NCBI RefSeq assembly: GCF_001625195.1
Contig: NC_054389.1
Coordinates: 12,396,520 to 12,460,519 of the forward strand
Origin: Drechmeria coniospora
Taxonomy: Eukaryota; Ascomycota; Sordariomycetes; Hypocreales; Ophiocordycipitaceae
Direction: 5' to 3'
DNA: 64,000 nt
How positions within the stretch are numbered: position 1 is the first letter of the stretch; every line of letters starts with the position of its first letter. Positions 39,824 to 64,000 of the stretch are shown one piece after another. The notes under the pieces are model-generated. The model was not told the DNA's origin, ran no database searches, and was given only the letters and a program-made list of their open reading frames with translations. The translations under genes and the position numbers were made by a program.

Positions 39824-42148
39824 CGGGGCGACGGGGGGTTGACGGGAGGACCGAGGGTGCCGGGAGGACGAGAGGATGAGAGGACGAGAGGACGAGAGGA
39901 CGAGAAGGCGAGAGGGCGACAAGGATAGAGCCATTCCTCGCCTCCGTCCGTCGCAGGTGAAAGGAGGGGGCTCCGCGTCGAGGGGACGAGAGGACAAGAG
40001 GACGAGAGGACAATAAAGAGAGAGCCATTCCTCCCCTCCGTCCGTTGCAGGTGAAAGGAGGGGGCTCCGCATCGAGAGGACAAGAGGACAAGAGCCATTC
40101 CTCCCCTCGGTCCGTCGTAGGTAAAAGGAGGGGGCTCCGCGTTGAGAGGACGATAAAGAGAGAGCTATTCCTCCCCTCCGTCCGTTGCAGGTAAAAGGAG
40201 GGTGCTCTGCATTGAGAGAACGAGAGGACAAGAGCTATTCCTCCCCTCCGTCCGTTGCAGGTGAAAGGAGGGGGCTCCGCGTTACGAGGGACATGGCGAC
40301 GGTGCGGAAACGACGAGCCGAGCGAAAGGTAGGCGGTACGGAAGCTGTCCACGTACGGCATCGACGAGTGAAGCCGTGCATGATGAATCACGGAAACTCT
40401 TTGGGCCATTTCCCGTTTGCCGACGGCATCCCGCGATGCCTCGTGATGAAAATTCGACGAAGCGTTGGCCGAGGCCGTGGCGAATCCGATTCTGACGTGG
40501 CGGTAAAGGAGCTTTGTCGCACCGCCCTTGGCCGTCTCTTCCTCCTCACTGCTGCCTTTGTGTGTGTCTGCGGCGCCGGTACCATCTCTGCCCGAGACGA
40601 AGTGCTGACGATGGGGAAATGCTGGCACGAGGAAGATTATGGTAGACGCCCAAGACGTTGTGTGAAGTGGTGATGTTTGCCTTGCCTCTCGTACGGAGCG
40701 CTCTTGCCCGTGTTGTCGTGCACCAGCACCAGCACCGTACGAGTAACGACGTGTCGGTACTGTACATGTACTCGCACTTGCCAGGCCATCTTGTGCATAT
40801 ACATGTTGCCGTGCACATCGCCAGTACGCAAGTACTGTCAGGAGGCGCACGTAAGTACGATTTGTAGGTGAACATGTAAATGTACATGTAGTAATTACTT
40901 GTCCAGAGTACTTGGTATCTTCCGACTGGCGGAGTATTATGGACAAAGTAACAATCATCTTGCGTGTACTCCGTACAGTGTGAGTGTATTCCTCTGTATC
41001 CCTCAGCGTACAACGTCAACTACATATCGGCAGTATAATATACTTGTAGATATATGCACAGTAATACCCCCCCCCCAGAACATGCATGCCAACAAGTATC
41101 AAATGCCGTTGGCTGCACTGCAAAGTTTGTACAACGTCGGAGTGTAAAACTCTGTGCCGAGTACTCCGTACATTTACTGTATAAGTACTCCGTATTCGTA
41201 GCCATGGGCCCGAGTGCTCAGGTACCATGGCCCAGGTCCCACACAGAACCGTGCTGCTGGAAATTCAGGGGCTCGGTACTACTGAACGGCACAGTGTAAT
41301 GTGCAACTACACGTAATGACAAGTAAGTACACCTCCTACGGAGTACATATAGTTACATGCGCCTGCACCTACTTACTGCACCAACTTACAGTACGTCTGC
41401 GTTAGTACCTAGTACCGTGCACCTAAGTACTGACTGCACACCAACTTACTGCACACCTCCGCTTCTAGGAACTACCTTACAGTACCTACTTGGGTACTAG
41501 GTACCTACTTACTTAGTACTTCTCTGTACTGCCATCCAGCGAGAACAACCCCCGCACCGCCGTAATTACTGTACAACTACTCCGTAATTACTCCGTGCTC
41601 CGGACAGTACTTACCGTTCTGTACTATGTACTAGTCAAGTACTAGGCACGTTACGGTGCACTTCCATGTCCTTACACCGACATGGCAGTACAAGCACGGC
41701 AATGCAAAATCTCTCGAAAGCCATCGTGCGTCCATTGCAAACGGCCACAACACTTTCTCGCGCCGAGCACCACCTCATGTCGTAGGTCCAAAGTGTTGGT
41801 ATTGTAAAAGTAATACAGTACATTTGTACTGGCAATGGTACGCTGGAACGGATGGATGGTGAGTACTAGGTAAGTAAGTACTAGGTACATGCTAGTACGC
41901 TGAACTTGGTGACTCACACCGACCGTTGAGCGACGGAGACGGTGCCAATACGGTGCCGTTTGCACAGTACGCCCGCGCTGCACCCTACTTGACCGTTGCT
42001 TCCTCCTCGCCTCGACATATTTCTCACCCTCCAACATACACCACGAGCGGCCCTCCTCCGCATCATCCATCCTCCTCTTCCCCAAGCACCTCACGGTAGG
42101 AAGAAACAGCCTCTCCGTCGGCCGGGAGAGGCGTCGCACCTTGCATTC
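39824..42148. other. Intergenic with 70-bp array and GTAC-rich DNA
   Basis: No gene is supported. 39928-40282 is a tandem array. 40660-41900 is rich in GTACATGTAC, TACTTACT and ACTCCGTAC elements. The end holds the likely 5' leader of the bZIP gene. Confidence 0.5.
39928..40282. repeat. Five-copy array with 70-bp period
   Basis: A 50-bp conserved unit beginning GAGCCATTCCTCCCCTCCGT and ending GGGGGCTCCGCG starts at 39928, 40022, 40092, 40162 and 40232. The last four are exactly 70 bp apart. Purine-rich GAGAGGACGAGAGGAC spacers separate the units, and a pure GAGAGGAC run precedes them at 39870-39900. Confidence 0.95.
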
Positions 42149-43127
42149 ATGGACACCGCCACCTCAACAACCGTCGTTGCCGTTTCTCAGAACCGAGTCG
42201 CCTTCTTCCGGCCGCAGCAGCGAAAGGCGCCCGTCCCCCCTTGGTGACGAATCGCCGTGGTGGTCCTTGCTGTCCGCCGCAGCGTTAGTCGAGCCGGCCG
42301 AGTGCCAACTTTCCAGTCACGATTCGTTCCATTCGTTCGTCGGTCCGCTCGCAGCCGCCGTCGACCGTACGACGCACCCGCAGCAGCTGCTTCTCAGCCA
42401 CCAAGATATCTATCCTTCGCTAGAGGAGCCATCTCTTTCTCTTCCCGCCATCTGTGACGAACTTTGGGACTGCTTCTTAACCGCATCGGATATGAGTCTC
42501 GTTGCGTCGGCACCTACCGGTACCATGGTTCAGAACGGTACGTCAAGCCAACGCCGGTACATGTCTGAACAGCGTGCCAACATGGACCATCATGTAGCCG
42601 GCGGGCCATCTCTTCACCAACACCATCACGACAACATTTCTCCCAACGGCCTTTCAATTTTGGATACTTTCAGCCTCGACCACCTGATGAGTTCGCCACA
42701 TGTACATGACGACACGACCTCGTTGAACGCCATGGCCGATGCCTCTACTTTGTTTGCCTCGCCCGAGCCAATCGTACCACCATCCACATCTGCCACGCCC
42801 CTGTCTCTACCGCTGCCTCCCATGCACATCGCACATGCTCAAAAACCGTCCGGATCACCGTCTTCCTCGAATGAGGGAATCAAGGGAAACCCCAAGCAGC
42901 CGCCGGCTGTGCGCACCGAGCGAGGTGATGTCTCGTCGCTGAAGCGCCATCGCAACACCATGGCCGCCCGCAAGTCCCGCCAGAAGCGCCTCGACCACAT
43001 TGCCGACCTCGAGCACACGCTAGGCGAGGTCAGCCGAGAAAGGGATGAGTTGCGGTTGCAGTTGGCCCGGAGAGAGGCCGAAGTTGAGACGCTGAGGGAG
43101 GCGTTGAGGGGGACGTCGCGACCATGA
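42149..43127 (+). CDS. bZIP transcription factor
   Basis: The C-terminal half is clear. A basic region (KRHRNTMAARKSRQKRLDHI, with the Asn-x7-Arg core) is followed by a leucine zipper (ADLEHTLGEVSRERDELRLQ onward) up to the TGA ending at 43127. The 5' end is less certain. The zipper frame has no early ATG, whereas an ATG at 42149 in another frame starts MDTATSTTVVAVSQNRVAFF. An intron 42244-42316 (GTGACG...TTCCAG, 73 bp) joins the two, giving 301 residues, which is the model used here. The region between is Ser/Thr/His-rich and probably an activation domain. By family it is a nuclear, dimeric DNA-binding regulator. The basic region does not mark it as Cpc1/Gcn4, Yap1 or HacA, so targets are unknown. 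Confidence 0.7.
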
Positions 43128-48679: not shown

Positions 48680-50723
48680 ATGCCCGAGTTTCGACACGCC
48701 CGCAGCGGCAGCCTGAACATCCCCTCGGCTTCCCCCTCGGCTGCCCCGGGCCCTCATGGCCAGATGACCCCCCGAAGCCCTCCCAGTACGTCGTCCCCTT
48801 GGTTGTTCCCTTGGTCGTCCCCTTGGTCCTCCCCGATCTTCATCCCCTCGGCCGTCCCCTTTGGTCGTCCCCTCGGCCGTCCCCTCGGCCGTCTCCTTGA
48901 TCGTCACCTCGATCGTATCTTTGGTCGTCCACGGGTCGCCCCGCCGTGATGGCGATGCCACTCCGGCCGGGTCGGTCAACGACGGGAACCTGCAAGAGGG
49001 GGTGCGGAAGGATGGATGGAAACTCCCGCTGACCATGGTGCTGCGATCCCTAGACACCTCACACGTACCCTGCAAGTTCTTCCGTCAGGGGGCCTGCCAG
49101 GCCGGTGCCGCCTGTCCCTTCAGCCACGACATCGGCACGTCGACCGAAACTGTCTGCAAATACTTCGCCAAGGTGCGTCCGGACCCCGAACCGCTGCCAT
49201 TGGCCTCGTGCCGAGTCCCCCCCGTCACTGAACCCCGACTCCAGGGCAACTGCAAGTTTGGCCCCAAGTGCGCCAACGTCCACGTCCTCCCCGACGGCCG
49301 CCGCATCAATTACGGCAAGAATGGCGTCACCATCGGCTCGACGCCCGTGAGCCTCGCCGGCCGACCCTCGCCGACGCCCACCTCGCCGACGCCGGTACCG
49401 GCCAGCGCCTACCATCAATCCTCGGCCAGCGCCCTCACCTCGTCGCTCTACGCTGACCAACCCTCGTACCCGATTGGATACCCGACCGACGCCGACCGTC
49501 ATCGCCTCGCCCGCCAGCCGAGTCTCGACATCGGCATCCCCGCCATCGACACGCCCTTCACCACGACCAGCTACGGCTCACCCCGCGACGACGACACCCT
49601 GCGCCTCGCCTACGGCCTTCCCTCCCTCAACAGCAAGGGGCTTTCCGTGCTCGACGCCCCCCTGCCCTCCTCGTTCGACTCCAACGGAATCTCAAACGCC
49701 GCCCGCTTCCCCTCGGCCCCCTGGCCGTCGTCGGTTCCCTCCAAGTTCGGCCTCGAGTCGCCCACGCCATCCCTCAACAACGCCAAGGACTCGCGCACCT
49801 CCGAGACGCTCAAGTTGCTCCACACCTCGGCCTTTGGCTCCTCCGACTTTTTGGTCACCGCCATGGCCAGCGGCAGCCCCCCCAACTCGCAGCCCGTCAA
49901 TGGCGAGGAGTACTTTGGCAAGCGAGCCATGCACTCGTCCAGATACTCGAGGCCCAGGATGCTGAGCGCGAGCCTGCCCAAGACGTCGGTCGACCACGAC
50001 TGGGAAGCCGAGTTCGTCTTTGGCGACGACGGCGACAATGGCCCGGAAAACTACGTGCCCGAGAACCTGCAGGATCTCCTGACGCCGGCCGAGAAGGCTC
50101 GACGTGGCTCCATTCGCGACACCGATCCCGTCGTCGACAGCATTTCCAAGTACGGCAGTCCGATCGGATCCAGCCCGAGTCGGTGGGGCTCCCTGTTCCA
50201 GCGCCAGAAGGAGGAGGAGGAAGCGGCGCGGGCGGCCAGGAACGCCGGTTCCGCCTTTGGACACGTTGGCAGCCCTCTGCGGAAGTCGACGCTGGCTCAG
50301 GAGATGGGCAAAGGCTCCAAGGGCGCCAACGGAGCCTCGCCACGCCTCTCGGCCTCGCGCTCCGCGAGCGAATCCATGTCTGTCCTATCCCAGCAGTTCC
50401 AGCGCAGCCGGCTCGACGACGGCTCCGTCGGCTCCCCGCTCCTTCACCCCACGACGACGCGCATCGGCAAGGACCGAGCCATGGAGCGGCACGTGTCGAC
50501 CGGCAGTATCGGCTCCTCCGTCACCGGTCGCTTCACCACGCCGATTGATGAGGAGGACCCCGATTTCGTCTTCAGCATGGAGGAGGAAGACGACCCCAGA
50601 ACTGCGAGGGTGCGGAAGCGGGCTTCTGCCACCCTGAGCATCGGCGGCTTCGCAAGCTACGCCGCCGCCGCCGGCAAGGGCACCAAGGAGCCGCGCGACA
50701 CGGCTCCCGTCGGCGGTCGGTGA
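48680..50723 (+). CDS. CCCH zinc-finger protein, Lee1-like
   Basis: Exons 48680-48785, 49054-49172 and 49245-50723 encode 567 residues. Intron 1 is 268 bp (GTACGT...CCCTAG) and intron 2 is 72 bp (GTGCGT...TCCAG). Joins give SPP-NTSHVPCKFFRQGACQ and CKYFAK-GNCKFGPKCANVH. Two C-x7-C-x5-C-x3-H fingers result, at residues 42-60 and 70-88, directly followed by VLPDGRRINYGKNG. This tandem-finger start is that of fungal Lee1-type proteins. The remaining 470 residues are Ser/Pro-rich and disordered, with short conserved-looking segments such as DHDWEAEFVFGDDG and NLQDLLTPAEKARRG. Fingers of this type usually bind RNA, so a post-transcriptional role is inferred and not shown. The start at 48680 is the nearest in-frame ATG before the conserved join; an upstream ATG cannot be excluded. 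Confidence 0.85.
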
Positions 50724-51910: not shown

Positions 51911-52577
51911 TTAGTTGGCGTCAGGCTGGCTCAGGATATACTCCACAGCCTTGTCGACTACGCTGGGTCAGCATTGCCCTTCCTGGCATGGGATAGGGGT
52001 ACGAACCAGAGTGGATTGTGTCTGCGTCCTTGTCGGGGATCTCGATGCTGAACTCCTCCTCAATCGCCATGACGACTTCGACGGTATCGAGGCTGTCGAG
52101 GCCAAGGTCGTTGGAAAAGTGGGAGTTGGCCTTGATCTGTTGGCAAGTTAGACGGTAGTCGTGCAAGGTAAGGGGTTCGCGGGATGCCCTGGACGTACGC
52201 TGGAGGTGTCCTTGACCTAGGGCACGGGTGTTAGCTATTTTGAACCCAACGACGAGATTGCACGCGGGGGCAGCCCAAGCTTGGCAAAACATCTTGATGC
52301 CATATCCGGGCAGCTTCCGCTTCTCCCATGCTCAAACTTCTGACTGGCATTGGGGAGGGGGGCTTCTTACCTTGTCAAAGCCCTGCAACAAGCTGATGAT
52401 GCGACCCTCGACCTGCTCCTTGCCCAGGCCGCTGGAGGCGCCATACATCCGCACGGCAATAAGGCTCTGGACACGGGGCACAGCAACTCGGGGCGCCGCG
52501 ACGAGCATAGACCTTGCCGGGACGGCGGGACGGCTAGCGGCGCGGACGGCCGAGCGGAGGATGGCGGTGCGGAACAT
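51911..52577 (-). CDS. Mitochondrial acyl carrier protein (ACP1/NDUFAB1)
   Basis: Minus-strand exons are 52577-52371, 52216-52199, 52136-52007 and 51957-51911, giving 133 residues. Introns are 154, 62 and 49 bp. The first exon encodes an Arg/Ala/Val-rich mitochondrial presequence ([20 protein letters not shown]). The second is only 18 nt (VKDTSS). The third holds the ACP core [20 protein letters not shown], with Ser90 of DSL as the 4'-phosphopantetheine site, and [14 protein letters not shown]. The fourth ends [15 protein letters not shown]. It serves mitochondrial fatty acid synthesis (octanoate for lipoate), Fe-S assembly and complex I. Its complex I role relates it to the GRIM-19 gene elsewhere in the window. 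Confidence 0.94.
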
Positions 52578-53755: not shown

Positions 53756-54258
53756 ATGCTCCTACTCGGGATCCTCGCCGCATGCATCGCCAGCGCTTCC
53801 GCGCTCGGCATCAATTGCCATGGCACAGGCTGTAATAAAAAAGGTCCCAAAATGGAGGACCTGTTGGCCCAAGTGCAGCAAATTCAAGTCCAAGGGGAGG
53901 GATCTCGTCACTACGCACCTGGCGGTAAGCACTTTCCGCATCTGCGTCGGCGGCATTGCTGCGTGGCCCGGATTTCTAACCGTCGGTTCGGGCACTTTCA
54001 GAGCAGCTTGCCTGCGTTCAAGGCAGACGCACTTCGACGTGCGTCTACTACCAGAATGGCGATGGTGGCACCGCCGACATGGCGGTCCCGCTGATCGAAG
54101 GACTGATTGCATTTGGGTGCAAGAATTGCGGCAGCAATCCCTCCGTCAAGGGCGAGGACGTCTGGAAGGGCCAGTTGTCTGTCAATGTGGTCAAGGGTCC
54201 TTGCTGTGCAGGGGACTGCGTCTGTCCGTACAACGTACTCGACGTACAAGCACTCTAA
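53756..54258 (+). CDS. Small secreted cysteine-rich protein, KP4 killer-toxin-like family
   Basis: Exons 53756-53924 and 54002-54258 (77-bp intron, GTAAGC, TTCTAACC branch, TTTCAG, phase 1) encode 141 residues. A signal peptide of about 17 residues ends after an Ala-rich stretch. The mature part opens with a Leu-Gly-Ile-Asn-Cys motif and carries ten cysteines. The second exon has the family layout: an Ile/Leu-rich helix, a Gly-Cys-x2-Cys-Gly-Ser segment, and a Gly-x-Leu-x-Val-Asn-x-Val strand. These are the marks of the KP4-type killer-toxin family (PF09044), first known from a smut virus and present as genomic copies in many fungi. Such proteins are thought to affect calcium uptake of competing fungi; for genomic relatives the role is largely inferred. 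The gene looks intact and ends 1.7 kb from the 3' end of the convergent poly-lysine synthetase-like gene. Confidence 0.78.
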
Positions 54259-55998: not shown

Positions 55999-58900
55999 TC
56001 AGACGATGGATGCGTTGAAAGCGTCCCGCTGCGTCGACGTGCGTGTCACATCCGATCTCCAGTCCGAGCTGTCGACCAACGTATCCACCGCTTCCTCCTC
56101 GACCCAAGGCCGTACCGGATTCCCCCGCCAGCGGGTGCCGGCTGGGATGTGCTCGCCGCGCATGACCAGCGAGGACGGTGCGACGGTGGCGCCGGCACCG
56201 ATGGTGGTGCCCGGAAGCGTAATCGCGCGTGGGCCCAGCGTTGCCCCTGCCTCGAGATGGACCGTGTCCAGGCGCATCAGCCGGTCGTGGAAGAGGTGGG
56301 TTTGCAGCACGCATCCTCGGTTGACGGAGGCGCCGGCGTCGATCTGGATCAGCTCGGCCTCGGGGAGGAGGTGGCTCTCCAACCACACTCCACGACCAAT
56401 CTTGGCCCCCAGCGTTCTCATCCACATGGACAGCATCGGAGTTCCGTAGCACGCCTGAGCGAACCAAGGCACGCCGAGGCACTGGACGAAGGTGTCGGCC
56501 AGCTCGTTGCGCCAGACAAAGGAGCTCCACAAGGGACGCTGCTTGCCAGGTTTGATGACGGGCGTCAGCAACCACTTCGCCAAGGTCGTGATGGCGCTCG
56601 CGACGAGTCCGGCGCCGATGACCATGCCGCTGCCCGCCAGGACCGACCACCCGATGCCGAAGGTGTTGAGGAACCACAGCATCGTGAGCCCGCTCAGCGT
56701 CAGGATCATGCCCGAGATGAGCAGGGGGATGAGCCTGCAGGACTCGACCAGGGCTCTCGCCAGCACGAGTCGTCGAGGCGGCTTAAAGGTCAAGGCCTCG
56801 TCCACGGGCGAGTCGACGCGGCGGGGGAGAGACATGGGCGGTCGCCCGAGCCACGACGAGCCGGGCTTGACGTCCTTGGGCGCCGTGCCGAGAACACCGA
56901 TGAGGACGCCATCGGGCACCCGGATATCCGGCTCGACGATGGCCGAGTTTCCGACAAAAGTCTTGAAGCCGACGGTTGAGGGACCGAGCCGAATTTGTCC
57001 GTGACCGAGCTCGAAGGGTGAGAGCAGCACGTCGTCGGCCAGGAACGCACCGTCGTCGACCTCGAGGAGCGACGGCACGGACACGATGGTCGACGCCTCG
57101 ACGTTGCGCCCGATGCGCGCACCAAGCATCTTCAGCCAGATGGGCGTCAACAAGCTCGCGTAAATGGGAAACAGCGTCGTCCGCGCCGTGATCATGAGGC
57201 CGTGCGTCCACCACGCCGCCCACGCCGTCGTGCTGTGCCAAGAGTACACGCCCGGCTTCATGGCCAGGCTGAGCAGTCGCGTGAGGGAGATGACGAAGGC
57301 GCAGTAGAGAATGATGCCTATGGCGGTGCCGGGCAGCGTCAGCTCGACAAGCGCGAGGCACACGGTGTTGAAGTCGGCGTAGTCGCGCACGAGCAGGGGC
57401 GTGAGCAGCAGCGTGGGAGCGATCATGAAAAGCGGGAAAAAGTCCATGACAAGCAGCGTCGTCGTGTACCGGAACCCCGACCAGAACGTCTGGCCTCTGG
57501 TCGCCGCCATCTTCTCGTTGGGCGAGGGCACGTGGTCCGGCCCCTTGACGGTTCCTTGAACGCAGGTGCCGGGCGGCACGTCGGCGTATGCCTCGAGCAC
57601 CGTGTTCGGCATGAGCGTGCTGCGACTACCGACGCGGGCGCCTTCGCCGATGGTGATGGAGCCGACGTGCAGGATGTCGCCGTCGAGCCACCATCCAGCC
57701 GTGTCGACCTCGGGTTCGATGGCGCACCCGGCGCCGAAGCTGGCGAGGCCCGTCGTCGGTGGCAGGCCGTGCAGCTGGGCATCCTTGCCGACCTGGCAGC
57801 CGAGCATGCGGGCGTAGCGTCGACACCACTGCGTCCCGCCGATGGAACCGATGTTGCCGAGTCCGGCGAATCGCTCCGCCGCCCACAGCCGAATGTGCAG
57901 CCATCCGCCGCGAGGGTAACTGCCTGGGGTGATGCCGATGGTGAGCAGCCGCGCCGCCAGGGCGGTGGTGAGAAGACGGCCGGGAAAGGAGAGAAACACG
58001 GCGGAGCCGACGGCGAGCAGCCACCACGGCATATCGCCGGTGAACTGGCCGGCCCAAGAGTTGGCACCGAGACGGAGGGTGAAGAACTTTTTGGTGAGCC
58101 CGACGGCCGTGAGCCAGCGGAGGCCCTGAAAGCTGAGCTCGAAAAACAGGATGAACAGCTGGACGAGCACGACCCAGCGCGGAGTCGGCTTCACGAGACG
58201 CTCCGAGTGCTTGATGCCGGAGAGGTCATCGATGCGCGTCGCCATGGCCTCGAGGGCCGGGTTCTCGTACACGTCGGCGACGGAGAGGGTCGGCACTCGC
58301 TCGCGCAGCTGCGACACGAGCTGGGCGGCGCCGAGGCTGCTGCCGCCGAGATCGAAGAAGTGGGCTTTGGGCGAATCCGGCCCCACACCGAGAACACGGC
58401 CCCACCTTTCGGCGAGCCAAGCCATGGTGCCGACAAAGGCGGAACGACCGTCAGCATCCTTTGCGGGCAACGATGGCGGCGGCCACGGCAGCGCTTTGCG
58501 GTCGACCTTGCCCGAGGTGCGAACGGGTAGGTCGTCGACGGCGACGAGCATGGGAACAAGACCGGCCGGCAGCACGTGCTTGAGCAGCTCGCGGTCGGCG
58601 GCGACGTCGACCTTGTGGCCCTTGTCCCGGACGACGTAGCCCACAAGCACCTGCATGCCGAGCTCGCTACGACGGATGGCGCTGGCTGCTGCGCCGACGC
58701 CGGGGAGCGTCATCAAAGCTGCGTCGATCTCGCCCAGCTCGATGCGGCGGCCGCCCAGCTTGATCTGCTCGTCGTTGCGACCGATGAAGACGAGCCCTTC
58801 CCGCTCGGCTCTGACCAGGTCGCCGCTGCGGTACGCCCGCTCGCCGTCGAAGACGCTGGCCGGTGCAAACTTGACCTTGTCCTTCTCGAGGTCAAGGTAG

Positions 58901-60009
58901 CGAGCCATGCCGACGCCGCCGATGACGAGCTCGCCCTCCTCGCCCCATCGCACCGGCCGGTCGTCGGACCCGACGACGGCCATCTTCCAGCCGACGAGGG
59001 GTAGACCGATCCGAACGAGGGGCTCTCCGGCCACCAACGGGGCCGCGCACGTCACGACGGTTGCTTCGGTCGGACCGTACGTGTTCCACACAAACTCGAC
59101 CGTCTTGGCCAGCCGACCGGCGAGCTCGGGGGAGCAGGCCTCGCCGCCGAGGATGAGAAGTCGGACGCCGCGGAGCGTCTCGGTAGGCCACAGCGCCGCG
59201 AGCGTCGGCACCGTCGACACTGCCGAGATGCGTTGCGCCGTCAGGAAGGTGCCGAGGTCGGCGCCGGCCTTGACGAGGGACCTCGGTGCGGGCACGAGAC
59301 AGGCACCATGGCGCCAGGCGAGCCACATCTCCTCGCAGGAGGCGTCAAAGGCTACGGAGAGACCGGCGAGCACACGGTCGCCCGGTCCAAGGCGCCGATC
59401 CTGGGGCATGAAGAGCTCTGTTTCGGCATCGACGAAGGCGGCCGCGCTTCGGTGGCTAACGGCGACGCCCTTGGGCTTCCCGGTCGAGCCCGAAGTGAAG
59501 ATGATCCAGGCGTCGTTTTCCAGGCCCGGCCGGCTTTGCGGCCCGCCTACCGGCACGCCGTGTTTTGTGAGAGTCGCGTTGTCGGTCAGGACGGTGCAGA
59601 CCGAAGCTTCGGTCCAGACGATCTCGGCGCGCTCATCCGGATCGTCGACATCGACCGGGACGTAGGCCGCGCCGGCCGTGATGATTGCGAGAATGCCGAC
59701 ATACAGGTCCAGGGTTCCCGAGGTTACTCGAATGCCGACCCGATCGCCGACGCCGACGCCGACAGCTCTCAGCTGCTCCACGCGGGCTGCTATTCTCTTG
59801 GCCAGCTCGGCATAGGTCAAGCTCGACGTGCCGTTGTCGATGGCGAGGGCGTCGGGGTGAGCCGACGTGGACGCATCGAGTATGTCGACGAGCGTACGAG
59901 ACTCGGCCGGTTGCTGAAAGGGGTATATGGCCAAGTCTCCGCCAAGCACGGGGGACGGCACTTGCGTTAGGGTTTCTTGGCTCATGTCTGCGAGTTGACT
60001 TGCTGACAT
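55999..60009 (-). CDS. NRPS-like epsilon-poly-L-lysine synthetase (Pls/EplS family)
   Basis: One intronless frame encodes 1336 residues. Residues 1-510 are an NRPS adenylation domain: A3 FTSGSTGKPKG (171-181), A4 FDASCEEMW (221-229), A5 NTYGPTE (309-315), A7 YRSGDL (393-398), A10 SGKVDRKAL (499-507). A carrier domain follows with DLGGSS and the pantetheine Ser at 558. From about residue 600 membrane segments alternate with three left-handed beta-helix-like domains (hexapeptide repeats such as ITIGEGARVGSRSTLMPNTV and TTIGAGATVAPSSLV). No condensation or thioesterase domain is present. This A-T-membrane-C1/C2/C3 order and length match bacterial epsilon-poly-L-lysine synthetase (about 1319 residues), which joins lysines at the epsilon amino group at the membrane, and a fungal homologue reported from Epichloe. 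Pocket residues favour lysine. A related beta-poly-amino acid product is possible. Confidence 0.88.
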   Translation of the reverse strand: MSASQLADMSQETLTQVPSPVLGGDLAIYPFQQPAESRTLVDILDASTSAHPDALAIDNGTSSLTYAELAKRIAARVEQLRAVGVGVGDRVGIRVTSGTLDLYVGILAIITAGAAYVPVDVDDPDERAEIVWTEASVCTVLTDNATLTKHGVPVGGPQSRPGLENDAWIIFTSGSTGKPKGVAVSHRSAAAFVDAETELFMPQDRRLGPGDRVLAGLSVAFDASCEEMWLAWRHGACLVPAPRSLVKAGADLGTFLTAQRISAVSTVPTLAALWPTETLRGVRLLILGGEACSPELAGRLAKTVEFVWNTYGPTEATVVTCAAPLVAGEPLVRIGLPLVGWKMAVVGSDDRPVRWGEEGELVIGGVGMARYLDLEKDKVKFAPASVFDGERAYRSGDLVRAEREGLVFIGRNDEQIKLGGRRIELGEIDAALMTLPGVGAAASAIRRSELGMQVLVGYVVRDKGHKVDVAADRELLKHVLPAGLVPMLVAVDDLPVRTSGKVDRKALPWPPPSLPAKDADGRSAFVGTMAWLAERWGRVLGVGPDSPKAHFFDLGGSSLGAAQLVSQLRERVPTLSVADVYENPALEAMATRIDDLSGIKHSERLVKPTPRWVVLVQLFILFFELSFQGLRWLTAVGLTKKFFTLRLGANSWAGQFTGDMPWWLLAVGSAVFLSFPGRLLTTALAARLLTIGITPGSYPRGGWLHIRLWAAERFAGLGNIGSIGGTQWCRRYARMLGCQVGKDAQLHGLPPTTGLASFGAGCAIEPEVDTAGWWLDGDILHVGSITIGEGARVGSRSTLMPNTVLEAYADVPPGTCVQGTVKGPDHVPSPNEKMAATRGQTFWSGFRYTTTLLVMDFFPLFMIAPTLLLTPLLVRDYADFNTVCLALVELTLPGTAIGIILYCAFVISLTRLLSLAMKPGVYSWHSTTAWAAWWTHGLMITARTTLFPIYASLLTPIWLKMLGARIGRNVEASTIVSVPSLLEVDDGAFLADDVLLSPFELGHGQIRLGPSTVGFKTFVGNSAIVEPDIRVPDGVLIGVLGTAPKDVKPGSSWLGRPPMSLPRRVDSPVDEALTFKPPRRLVLARALVESCRLIPLLISGMILTLSGLTMLWFLNTFGIGWSVLAGSGMVIGAGLVASAITTLAKWLLTPVIKPGKQRPLWSSFVWRNELADTFVQCLGVPWFAQACYGTPMLSMWMRTLGAKIGRGVWLESHLLPEAELIQIDAGASVNRGCVLQTHLFHDRLMRLDTVHLEAGATLGPRAITLPGTTIGAGATVAPSSLVMRGEHIPAGTRWRGNPVRPWVEEEAVDTLVDSSDWRSDVTRTSTQRDAFNASIV

Positions 60010-62504
60010 AGCCAGCCGGCGACTTGAGGGTAGTCGACGCCTTTTTGCAAGTGCTTATACGGCGGCACGAGAGGACATGTGCTCCGAGGGAAGACGATGG
60101 ATGGGATCGACGACCTCACGACCGGCGGACTCGCGACATTAAATTGTTCTCTGCACGGGTACACAAGTACATGGTGTACTATTCTCGTCAAGAAGCAATC
60201 CTTCCTGAAGCCAGCGGGTCCCTTCATCCGCGGGACAGAGCAAGCGCAATAACAGATGATTGTCTCAACCGCCCCTGGCAGGGTATTCTTGGCATCCGGC
60301 ATGTCCTTTTTTCTCCGCAGGATCGTGAGCATCTGAGGCCACGATGCTGACGGTGTCCAGGATGCCACGCCAGGGGTATGGGGCACGGGCTGATTCAGGC
60401 ATAAGCGGGCAAGTGAGGGAAAGGCAAGTCACGAAAGCGGTAGCAGACTGTAAGTACGACGTGCTAGAGCAGCAGAAGGACGGGGCTAACCAAGGTGGGT
60501 GTAGGTGTATACGGAGCAGAGTCGACGGACGTGTACGGCCACGACGAGACTCGCTGCTGGCAGCCGTTGCATGCACTAGTTGCATGTACTTTATTTATAA
60601 GCGTGCATGCGCAACGGCCTGCCTGCCTACCGTACCGTACTGGTAGGTGCGCAGTGCCGTTGTATCGACGAGCGGAGCTGAGAGAGCCGGCCTGCTCGTA
60701 GCGGCATGGTGTTGTCTTGACGGCCTACGACCAGGGGCTGAACGATAGGGCTTCATTTGGTGGCGGCATTAGCCGCGGCATTAGCCGAACGCCTACACGC
60801 GGGCCTCGACTTGGACGGCGACCTCGTTCGACGTCGGGCTTGAAGGAGGCTCGATGGGTGCGGGATGCTACGCTCGAGTGCCCGTAGGGCGTGGGAGGCA
60901 CGAGGGTCGTTGGTCAGCTGCCAAGTCTCCAATAGCTGACAGTGCATACACGAAGGTAGGGTGTGCTCGAGAGGTACAAGCAACGGGCGACTCTGACGGT
61001 GGCGTGACTGGGATTCGAAGCACCATATCCTGCGCCGTCGACAGTTGGCCTCGAGCTCTGGGAATTTCCCGATGGGGTCAAGCCAGTAATCGAAACTCGT
61101 CGCGGAAGGTGGTACGAATATGGGCACTTGAAGGAGAAAACCGGCGAGGCTTGCAAAGGATTCGGGCAAGAAGGCATCGGCGGACGCTCGAGGCATCGGA
61201 TCAGCACTAAGAGGTTCGGGAAGCGCATACGGAGACTGGCCGCCGCTCGCGGCATGCAGCTCGCCCCAGCATCGTGCAGCGGCAACTCGGGCTCGTTCCA
61301 AGCTCGAGGAGGAGGATACGGCGACGATGGGCGGGTATGCGCGGAGCCGGGCGTCGGCTAGACCGGCCACCCTTGCGCCGGTGGTCGGGTGTCATTGGCG
61401 AGACGTCGCCTGCCTCTGCCCGTTCCGCCTCTGCTGTGGAGCCTTCCCGGCGCGGCACGACGAGGCAAGGCTTTGATTAGGCCTGTTGTGGCTATTGTTT
61501 CGAAAAAACCCGTGGTATAATTGCTCGAGATATTTTCAGTCCAGGATGCAACCTGTCCGTCGGTGGCACAGACGTCGTCGACGGCAAGCAATTTGCCGGG
61601 CACAGTACAAGCACAAGTACGGCGCGGGTGCGGGTGCGAGCGCGCGCAGGCAGGGCAGGGAGGTGGTACATTGGCGGCACAGGGCGCCGCGATAGCGAAC
61701 CCTCGGCTCAACATATGTCCCGGGCAGCGACGTTGACGAGGTCGTCGAGGCCGGCGAACGGTGACGATGGCCGGTACGTGCGGACGGCAGCGAGCACAAG
61801 GACGGACTGATGGACGGACTGGCGGCACCAGCTTGATCTGCCCAAGCGCGAGCCGGGTTCGTCAGATCAGCCTTACCGGACCGAGGCGCGCAACGTACGG
61901 TCTGCGTTGCCGCGAGGGAGAAGGGCGCGGAGTCGAACAATTGGGCAGAAGATACGGCCCGGCACTGCGCTCCGCACACCCTCAGCACTCGCACGGGACA
62001 TGCGCAGCATGCACTCGGTACACCTGCTTGCAAGCACTCGGTACACCTGCTTGCAAGCACCCTACTTACACCCGCAAGCACAGCACAACTCCGCACGTGC
62101 GAGCACCGTTCGGTGGTGGGCGAAGCTGACCGCTCCGGTCGCACGCAGCCCATTCCGGCAATGATTGGTGCGAGGGACGGCCAATGGCTCGACAGGGTAA
62201 GGGTACATGGCAAGCTGCAGACGGCTGATCCGGGCAGACGAGTGAGGGCGGAGATGGCATCGGTGTCAGCCGGCAGCAGCGTGAGAGTGCCGTCCGGCAT
62301 GACACGCACCCGCTCTGCACCACGGACGGAGACGTACCAGCACTCGTCGAGGCAGGTGCACGAGCACGCATGGCGGCGTCGGAATTTTGGGCGTCGCAAG
62401 AAAGCTACGCTGAAGCGAAGTGAACTGCAGCGGACCAAGGGGGGCAAAAGCAAGGCTTGCCGGGGGTGCTGATGGCAGGGATATCCGGGGAAGGGGGAAG
62501 GGGT

Positions 62505-62632
62505 AGGGCAGGGGAAGGGCAGGGGAAGGGCAGGGGAAGGGCAGGGGAAAGGCAGGGGAAGGACAGGGGAAGGACAGGAGAAGGGCAGGGAAAGGACAGG
62601 AGAAGGGCAGGGAAAGGGCAGGGAAAAGACAG
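62505..62632. repeat. 11-bp G-rich minisatellite, AGGGGAAGGGC units
   Basis: About eleven units of (A/C)AGGGGAAGGG(C/A) lie in tandem. Every unit has two G runs on the plus strand. Confidence 0.93.
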
Positions 62633-63674
62633 AGGGGCTTCTGGGGCGTTCGTCGTACAGGTGCCTGGACGAGCACGCACAGGTGTCTGGACGAGCACGG
62701 TAGTGCACGGGGTCCCGGCACCAGCGGCATCTCGATGCGCAGGAGCTTAATTCGATGCCAAGTGGATGGGGGGAGCGTTCCTGGCCGTCGTCCGCTTAGC
62801 GCTCCGCACTAGCCGTTGGAGCCAGTACCGACGCTCGACGGAAGCAGCTGATTCGCCGTCGCGCCTCGGCCGGCCGCTACGGAGGTCGCTAGCCGCATGG
62901 GGCACCGCCAGCCGCCCTGGCGGGTCCTGCGCAGGGGGCATGCGCCGGACGGCATACGAGGTGAACGGCTCGTCGTCGGGCGGCCAAGTACTGCAATTTG
63001 ATGGGCAATATTCCCCATCCACAGGCAATACGGAGCACTCGGCGCAGTATTAATAGCATGCTGGCTGCGCGCACCTGTCCTGCGCGGACGAGCGCTGGTC
63101 GCAGGCAGTGCGGAGTCGCGGCATGCGGCACCCGCATCAACCGCTAGGCGGGTGTGCACCGATTTGTGCATGCACACGGTGCAAGTATTGGCGCGCCGTG
63201 CAGGTATTGGCGGCACGGATCACGAGCACGGGTGCATGATTGCTTACATGCAAGTACAGCGAGAACGCTACTGGTCTCACGGGTCGAGGTCGGCAAGCAC
63301 ATGCACGTACCGGGGGAGCGGCGAGCGAGGGCATGTACCCGCGAGGATAGGCGCTCCGTACCTGTACATGCAGGCGTCGGTGCTGTACATGGAGGGTACC
63401 GCAGGAGGTGGGTCCGGCGTGAGACGGTACGAACTTTGCACAGCAGCGTCGATGCGAGATCGCGTACCGACCTACCTACTTGGGTAGCTACATTGTATGT
63501 CTCGTCGGTCGCTCGTACATGCATGTACGGAGTACCTGCACGGTATTGCAGTACAAGCCATGCCACGCGAGTGTCGGTGCCGGCGCTCGTACAGCAGATG
63601 GCTTGCACAGTACAGAGTACATTGCTCGTACTTGTACAATACGCGCAAGTACATGCTCGCACTCGGCACGTTGC

Positions 63675-64000
63675 TCAGAATAGCCTGCACGTTGCTCAGA
63701 ATAGCCTGCACATGGCTCGTAGTTGTGCGGAGTAGATGGCTCGCAGTTGTGCTGCACATGGCTCACAGTTGTGCATGGCTCGTAGTTGTACATGGCTCGT
63801 AGTTGTTCAGTACCTGGCTCGCAGTTGTACATGGCTCATGGATGTACAGTACATGGCCCGTAGTTGTACATGGCTCGTAGTTGTACAGGGTCGTAGCTGT
63901 GCAAGGTCGTAGTTGTACAGGCTCGAAGGTGTACAGGCTCGTAGTTGTGCAGGCTCGTAGTTGTGCATGGCTCGTACTGTACATGTACATGGCTCGTACA
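63675..64000. repeat. 17-18 bp degenerate array, ATGGCTCGTAGTTGTAC units, cut by window edge
   Basis: Around 16 units with core GGCTCGTAGTTGT(A/G)C, preceded by two TGCACGTTGCTCAGAATAGC units at 63677-63712. The array continues past the end of the window. Confidence 0.9.

Follow-up and report, generated by a model that had tools for sequence, protein, structure and literature searches.

Epsilon-poly-L-lysine (epsilon-PL) is an antimicrobial polymer that is more familiar as a product of soil bacteria, and its characterised synthetases include Pls of Streptomyces and Epls of the fungal endophyte Epichloe festucae (EfM3.024590; BBU42014; MIBiG BGC0002174). When epls was overexpressed in Epichloe, a strain in which no product had been detectable made epsilon-PL with a length of 8-20 units, and the yield of another strain rose 6.7-fold; at 1-10 micrograms per ml, the polymer kept the spores of three plant pathogens from germinating normally, inhibiting this step in each (PMC7179176). 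Here we describe a similar gene in Drechmeria coniospora, a nematode-killing fungus. The window, the whole stretch of 64,000 nucleotides that was analysed, corresponds to positions 12396520-12460519 of contig NC_054389.1, and the searched assembly comprises 32.83 Mb in 28 contigs. On the reverse strand of the window lies a single open frame, hereafter the epls-like gene, which very probably encodes a fungal epsilon-PL synthetase (Epls), as judged from its sequence, from a modelled fold and by analogy with characterised enzymes.

Fungal Epls homologues have been reported from Claviceps, Metarhizium, Beauveria, Aspergillus, Hirsutella, Ophiocordyceps and Cladobotryum (PMC10989895), from Fusarium, Emericellopsis and P. 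chlamydosporia (PMC11457142), and from two Polycephalomycetaceae (PMC11050985). Hirsutella is assigned to Ophiocordycipitaceae (PMC10989895), the family of D. coniospora (PMC4859500), so that a Drechmeria gene was to be expected; fungal Epls is already known across Hypocreales, and the gene described here is a further example, not a new kind. D. coniospora has been credited with 11 non-ribosomal peptide synthetase (NRPS) genes (PMC4792172) or with 10 NRPS and 9 NRPS-like genes (PMC4859500). PMC4859500 also mentions a mycelium-expressed NRPS-like gene, g3889, which may or may not be the epls-like gene. The word "lysine" is absent from the main text of PMC4859500 and "polylysine" from that of PMC4792172, and no paper pairing Drechmeria with polylysine or poly-l-lysine was found among the main texts searched.

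The domain order of the 1336-residue protein can be read directly (Table 1). At E up to 0.01, Pfam finds one adenylation domain (PF00501, 190 bits, residues 46-370), one carrier domain (PF00550, 46 bits) and a weak AMP-binding_C match (19.8 bits, below the cut-off of 24.5), and among the four families detected there is neither a thioesterase nor the condensation domain of a canonical NRPS. The C-terminal half covers positions 2-695 of the 695 in TIGR02353, the family of Pls and PosA C-terminal domains, at 571.4 bits (cut-off 423.1, E 2.6e-171; NCBIfam). When the whole genome was searched, the epls-like gene, at 574 bits, was the sole one of 6 matches above the cut-off. Membership is decided by this curated cut-off and not by E-value, because in a control set of named genomes 13/14 had a match at E up to 0.001 and 1/14 had one above the cut-off. 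A preliminary description of the window had proposed a Pls/Epls-type enzyme with an adenylation domain and a single carrier domain but neither a condensation nor a thioesterase domain, had named TIGR02353 as the family to check and had pointed to the Epichloe precedent. The domain order is confirmed, TIGR02353 is present, and the identification is supported by the family cut-off, the code of the pocket, the retained invariant residues, the fold of the model and the kinship to epsilon-PL-type synthetases; the precedent is real.

Table 1. Features of the window, with coordinates in window positions; residues are those of the epls-like protein.
Feature	Residues	Coordinates	Strand	Basis or remark
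epls-like gene	1336 aa	55999..60009	(-)	single open frame; stop codon counted within coordinates
Adenylation domain	28-513	58471..59928	(-)	7wew alignment and PF00501; predicted to activate L-lysine
Pocket positions D A E S I G T V V	222, 223, 226, 265, 286, 288, 310, 318, 319	59053..59346	(-)	
Tenth pocket position	K501	58507-58509	(-)	
Carrier (thiolation) domain	531-593	58231..58419	(-)	PF00550; GGSSL motif at 555-559
Pls/PosA C-terminal polymerisation domain	616-1299	56113..58164	(-)	TIGR02353
Membrane helix pair 1	612-690	57940..58176	(-)	model; hydropathy backs first helix only (612-631)
Left-handed beta-helix 1 (C1)	about 734-828	57526..57810	(-)	model
Membrane helix pair 2	838-914	57268..57498	(-)	model and hydropathy
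Left-handed beta-helix 2 (C2)	about 960-1055	56845..57132	(-)	model
Membrane helix pair 3	1079-1148	56566..56775	(-)	model and hydropathy
Left-handed beta-helix 3 (C3)	about 1198-1297	56119..56418	(-)	model; PF00132 best stretch 1250-1282
KP4 killer-toxin-like secreted protein gene, two exons		53756-54255	(+)	PF09044
Acyl-carrier-motif exon		51924-52331	(-)	past KP4-like gene, downstream side
CCCH zinc-finger gene		48768-50720		next after acyl-carrier-like exon, downstream side
bZIP gene		42141-43127	(+)	PF07716, 32.9 bits; about 13 kb from epls-like gene

Elsewhere in the genome, a large NRPS-like gene with a carrier domain, hexapeptide repeats and hydrophobic stretches lies at about 1.698-1.704 Mb of contig C2 (locus L007:1810-7099), and its adenylation domain appears to be split by an intron. 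It was considered as a second synthetase (C2, ~1.70 Mb) and rejected, with TIGR02353 scores of just 99.9, 66.2 and 34.1 bits in three pieces. The Pfam content of its larger frame suggests a different NRPS-like membrane protein, and the gene looks like a member of a separate fungal family.

The best sequence match of the epls-like protein in the PDB is 7wew, an epsilon-poly-L-lysine synthase adenylation domain (614 bits; next entry 357 bits), residues 22-508 of which align with residues 28-513. The ten substrate-pocket positions were picked by PheA (GrsA) numbering and located in the epls-like protein by aligning it with 85 bacterial proteins. They spell DAESIGTVVK. The same code is found in 81/81 bacterial epsilon-PL-type proteins, all actinobacterial; this set consists of the best 80 of at least 592 relatives, and so leans towards close relatives, together with a Streptomyces plasmid gene annotated as pls. 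By eye from the alignment, 7wew has these letters too. The remaining four of the 85 are plasmid-borne cationic homo-poly-amino-acid synthetases, used as outgroups, and their codes, DMEHNGTVTK (L098), DSECYGGVTK (L099), DLEDIGTVVK (L100) and DFECLSVVTK, are all unlike that of D. coniospora. They also serve as a check of the PheA-based reading, since L099 equals exactly the published Bdellovibrionales code, L100 exactly fits the published Rhizobia-type code, and L098 is one letter off the DMEHNGTVSK of PosA (PMC10522769). In this family lysine, ornithine and diaminopropionate enzymes have alanine, methionine and phenylalanine, respectively, at pocket position 2, and position 3 holds a glutamate that binds the amine of the side chain (PMC10522769); the epls-like protein has Asp, Ala and Glu at positions 1-3 and the full code of Pls. 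Beyond the pocket, it retains 243/251 columns invariant across the 81 bacterial proteins and 92/94 of those invariant across all 85, and to the Pls of Streptomyces and Kitasatospora, which are of the TIGR02353 kind and share its pocket code, its identity is about 50-54% over nearly the full length.

As a separate observation, the Bdellovibrionales enzyme whose code equals that of L099 (Streptomyces sp. NBC_00648 plasmid, NZ_CP109039.1) is reported to prefer L-arginine (PMC10522769), and L099 is a possible arginine-type synthetase in Streptomyces.

The C-terminal half (residues 596-1336; model residue + 595 = protein residue) was modelled with AlphaFold2 from an alignment of 40 rows, 39 of them actinobacterial, with a mean predicted local distance difference test score (pLDDT) of 87.2, a predicted template modelling score (pTM) of 0.88 and the final 39 residues poorly modelled. 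In the model, a helix pair is followed by a beta-helix three times over; the left-handedness of the beta-helices was adopted from a published model of the PosA family (PMC10522769). Of the membrane segments alternating with three hexapeptide domains that had been claimed from the letters, all three domains stand in the model, while in Pfam hexapeptide repeats (PF00132) reach 40 bits for the whole protein, over the cut-off, with no individual stretch passing. A hydropathy scan gave 12 windows that merge into six stretches, five of them in the C-terminal helix-pair regions, and missed the second helix of pair 1. The stretch at residues 99-121 lies within the soluble adenylation domain and is surely a false call. 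Individual beta-helices of the model resemble the hexapeptide-acyltransferase type of fold: the 50 listed of 493 Foldseek matches are beta-helix proteins, mostly hexapeptide acyltransferases, with template modelling (TM) scores of 0.08-0.14 by query length, and the 60 listed of 113 matches of a PDB profile search are acetyltransferases, gamma carbonic anhydrases and a few nucleotidyltransferases. Among the matches listed in either search, no solved structure covers the whole C-terminal half. PosA, known here by description, shares TIGR02353 with the epls-like protein, and its published model, in which six helices and three five-turn left-handed beta-helices pack as one domain (PMC10522769), agrees in layout with ours. 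By its published description, E. festucae Epls likewise has an adenylation domain, a thiolation domain, six transmembrane segments and C1-C3; both hosts belong to Hypocreales but differ in family and life style.

Kinship was assessed by comparing sequences with bacterial relatives only, fungal homologues being known here from papers. Three trees were built with 54, 33 and 26 rows, of which 49, 30 and 22 are bacterial epsilon-PL-type proteins and 4, 2 and 3 outgroups. In all three, the epls-like protein groups with the bacterial epsilon-PL-type rows, apart from the outgroups, and is sister to a Pls-like protein of Kutzneria buriramensis (L042; 55% identity, function predicted only), with SH-type support of 99, 98 and 99%. 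The branch that places this pair on the Streptomyces side has support of 82, 91 and 88%. The Kutzneria pairing, together with the likelihood preference described below, makes an exchange between Actinobacteria and fungi, in one direction or the other, likely. Near-full-length matches were present in 8 of a draw of 149 actinobacterial genomes (one of the 8 being the centre genome, picked for having one), and two further genomes matched over the NRPS adenylation region only.

A somewhat unlikely but serious alternative is that the fungal lineage is sister to all bacterial epsilon-PL synthetases and did not arise by transfer from within Actinobacteria. Trees with all bacterial rows in one clade without the epls-like protein are not rejected by the approximately unbiased (AU) test, and a position nested within Actinobacteria thus falls short of significance (p 0.317 with the 33-row tree, drawn from 86 rows, and 0.106 with the 26-row tree, drawn from 89). 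The 26-row set has two bacterial epsilon-PL-type proteins (L108, L111) and an outgroup (L109) added and others omitted, so the two p-values, which come from different row sets, are not directly comparable, and in both tests long outgroup branches persist as a caveat. L110, which gave no usable frame, is not among the rows. The Streptomyces-side branch is supported at just the values given above, and fungal epls genes are present in many Hypocreales (PMC10989895). Against a sister lineage stand the strongly supported Kutzneria pairing and the likelihoods, as trees holding the epls-like protein outside all bacterial rows are worse than the unconstrained ones by 8.5 and 12.7 log units. The preliminary description had taken the intronless gene as a sign of old transfer from bacteria, which is poor evidence alone: with long genes in one exon being no rarity in fungi of this sort, the lack of introns argues only weakly for transfer. 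The trees do point to Actinobacteria, with the non-significant nesting just described. Codon usage has no bacterial signature remaining and is therefore uninformative on the donor. The Drechmeria gene is a clear case for asking whether fungi acquired the epsilon-PL antibiotic from Actinobacteria.

The K. buriramensis genome itself has three TIGR02353 matches above the cut-off (two besides L042) and one at 366.7 bits, and one strain may therefore make several such polymers.

Some observations weigh against the assignment as an active epsilon-PL synthetase. Eight of the 251 bacterial-invariant residues are changed, including residues 293 and 1150 (G to P, in the C-terminal half), which are also the exceptions among the columns invariant in all 85 proteins, and identity to the 81 epsilon-PL-type proteins is just 48-55% over nearly the full length. 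In one published tree, most fungal sequences branch with ornithine-type enzymes (PMC10522769). On the Streptomyces plasmid, the gene after pls encodes an M1 metallopeptidase, whereas no such peptidase gene turned up near the fungal gene in the 20 window ORFs (open reading frames) scanned, which are not a full annotation.

The altered positions would suit a decaying or silent relic that yields no product, as would the finding that in wild-type Epichloe Fl1 epsilon-PL becomes detectable only on overexpression of epls or vibA (PMC7179176). This explanation is nevertheless quite improbable, since the frame is intact, nearly all invariant residues are retained and codon usage is host-like, with a correlation of 0.98 against nine other window frames pooled. 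The frame starts with ATG and runs for 1336 codons without an internal stop, confirming the length first proposed (the stop-to-stop frame is 1351 aa). The gene is read as a single exon, as had also been claimed: the frame spans the TIGR02353 model without a gap, as expected of a single exon, yet two consensus-like intron candidates, of 108 and 73 nt, remain inside it.

A polymer of another diamino acid (ornithine, diaminobutyrate, diaminopropionate or beta-lysine) made by the same architecture is more doubtful still. The family does produce such polymers, and the ornithine-type placement of fungal sequences mentioned above would fit; however, the pocket equals that of lysine-type enzymes at all ten positions, is not of the ornithine type and differs from the four outgroup codes, and identity is 48-55% to epsilon-PL-type proteins versus 27-31% to the four others. 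Bacterial contamination of the assembly, for which one could cite the bacterial origin of the closest sequences in a comparison set that is bacterial only, can practically be dismissed, with the gene embedded in a 12.5-Mb contig amid fungal-type genes (a condensin subunit, the KP4-like gene and a WD40 gene), its codon usage correlating at 0.98 with host frames versus 0.73-0.90 with three bacterial pls genes, and the best bacterial identity being 55%.

If the epls-like gene encodes an epsilon-PL synthetase, its substrate, reaction, product, export and antimicrobial role would follow those of the characterised relatives. The adenylation domain would convert L-lysine and ATP into lysyl-AMP, and the lysine would be attached to the carrier domain by way of its phosphopantetheine arm. 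The C-terminal half in the membrane, with its three helix pairs and three beta-helices, would then add each lysine via the side-chain amine, with no classical condensation or thioesterase domain taking part. By analogy with Epichloe Epls and Streptomyces Pls, L-lysine polymerised via its side-chain amine is most likely the product. Such a cationic homopolymer, which has 8-34 units in Epichloe, would act extracellularly against rival fungi, oomycetes and bacteria. Two genes of the genome match the phosphopantetheinyl transferase family PF01648 above its cut-off, and one of them could arm the carrier domain. The NDT80/PhoG family, which includes Epichloe VibA, has four matches at three places, one with an internal stop.

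D. coniospora is widely used with Caenorhabditis elegans for studies of immunity (PMC7500977). If the assignment is true, the reported hosts of fungal epsilon-PL genes would extend to an endoparasite of nematodes, and a secreted cationic antimicrobial polymer, so far unreported, would be relevant to how D. coniospora competes with other microbes in the worm. Tests of the activity of its metabolites have used methylene-chloride extracts and fractions (PMC4792172); such extraction is expected to lose a cationic polymer, and epsilon-PL of D. coniospora could thus have been missed. A wider picture, in which this fungus bears an actinomycete-type polymer antibiotic that Hypocreales gained from a Kutzneria-like actinobacterium and that defends the worm carcass against rival microbes, is offered tentatively and is doubtful as a whole.

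No gene cluster around the epls-like gene is apparent among the 20 ORFs scanned in the window and the six scanned beyond its end, which are not a full annotation. The KP4-like gene lies downstream and is convergent with it, with 1.7 kb between the two; searched separately against PF09044, its exons score 27.7 bits (just below the cut-off of 27.8) and 45.7 bits. This neighbour deserves attention, as KP4-like proteins have been hypothesised to work against rival fungi (PMC9506348); its association with the epls-like gene is one of position. The acyl-carrier-motif exon further downstream is, by eye, probably part of a gene for the mitochondrial acyl carrier protein. Upstream, the WD40 gene lies about 7-8 kb past the window end. 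The basic region of the bZIP gene appears by eye to be of the GCN4/CPC1 type, and a link of this gene to lysine supply would be speculation.

About 86 kb separate the epls-like gene from the contig end. No telomere repeat is present in the final 501 bases, and four exact TTAGGG units had no match anywhere in the assembly in a search that passes over simple repeats; a CAGCAA repeat is seen by eye near the contig end. Imperfect short tandem repeats, also noted by eye, occur upstream of the epls-like gene at window positions 62480-62620 and 63650-64000, and resemble GGGGAAGGCA and CTCGTAGTTGTACATGG.

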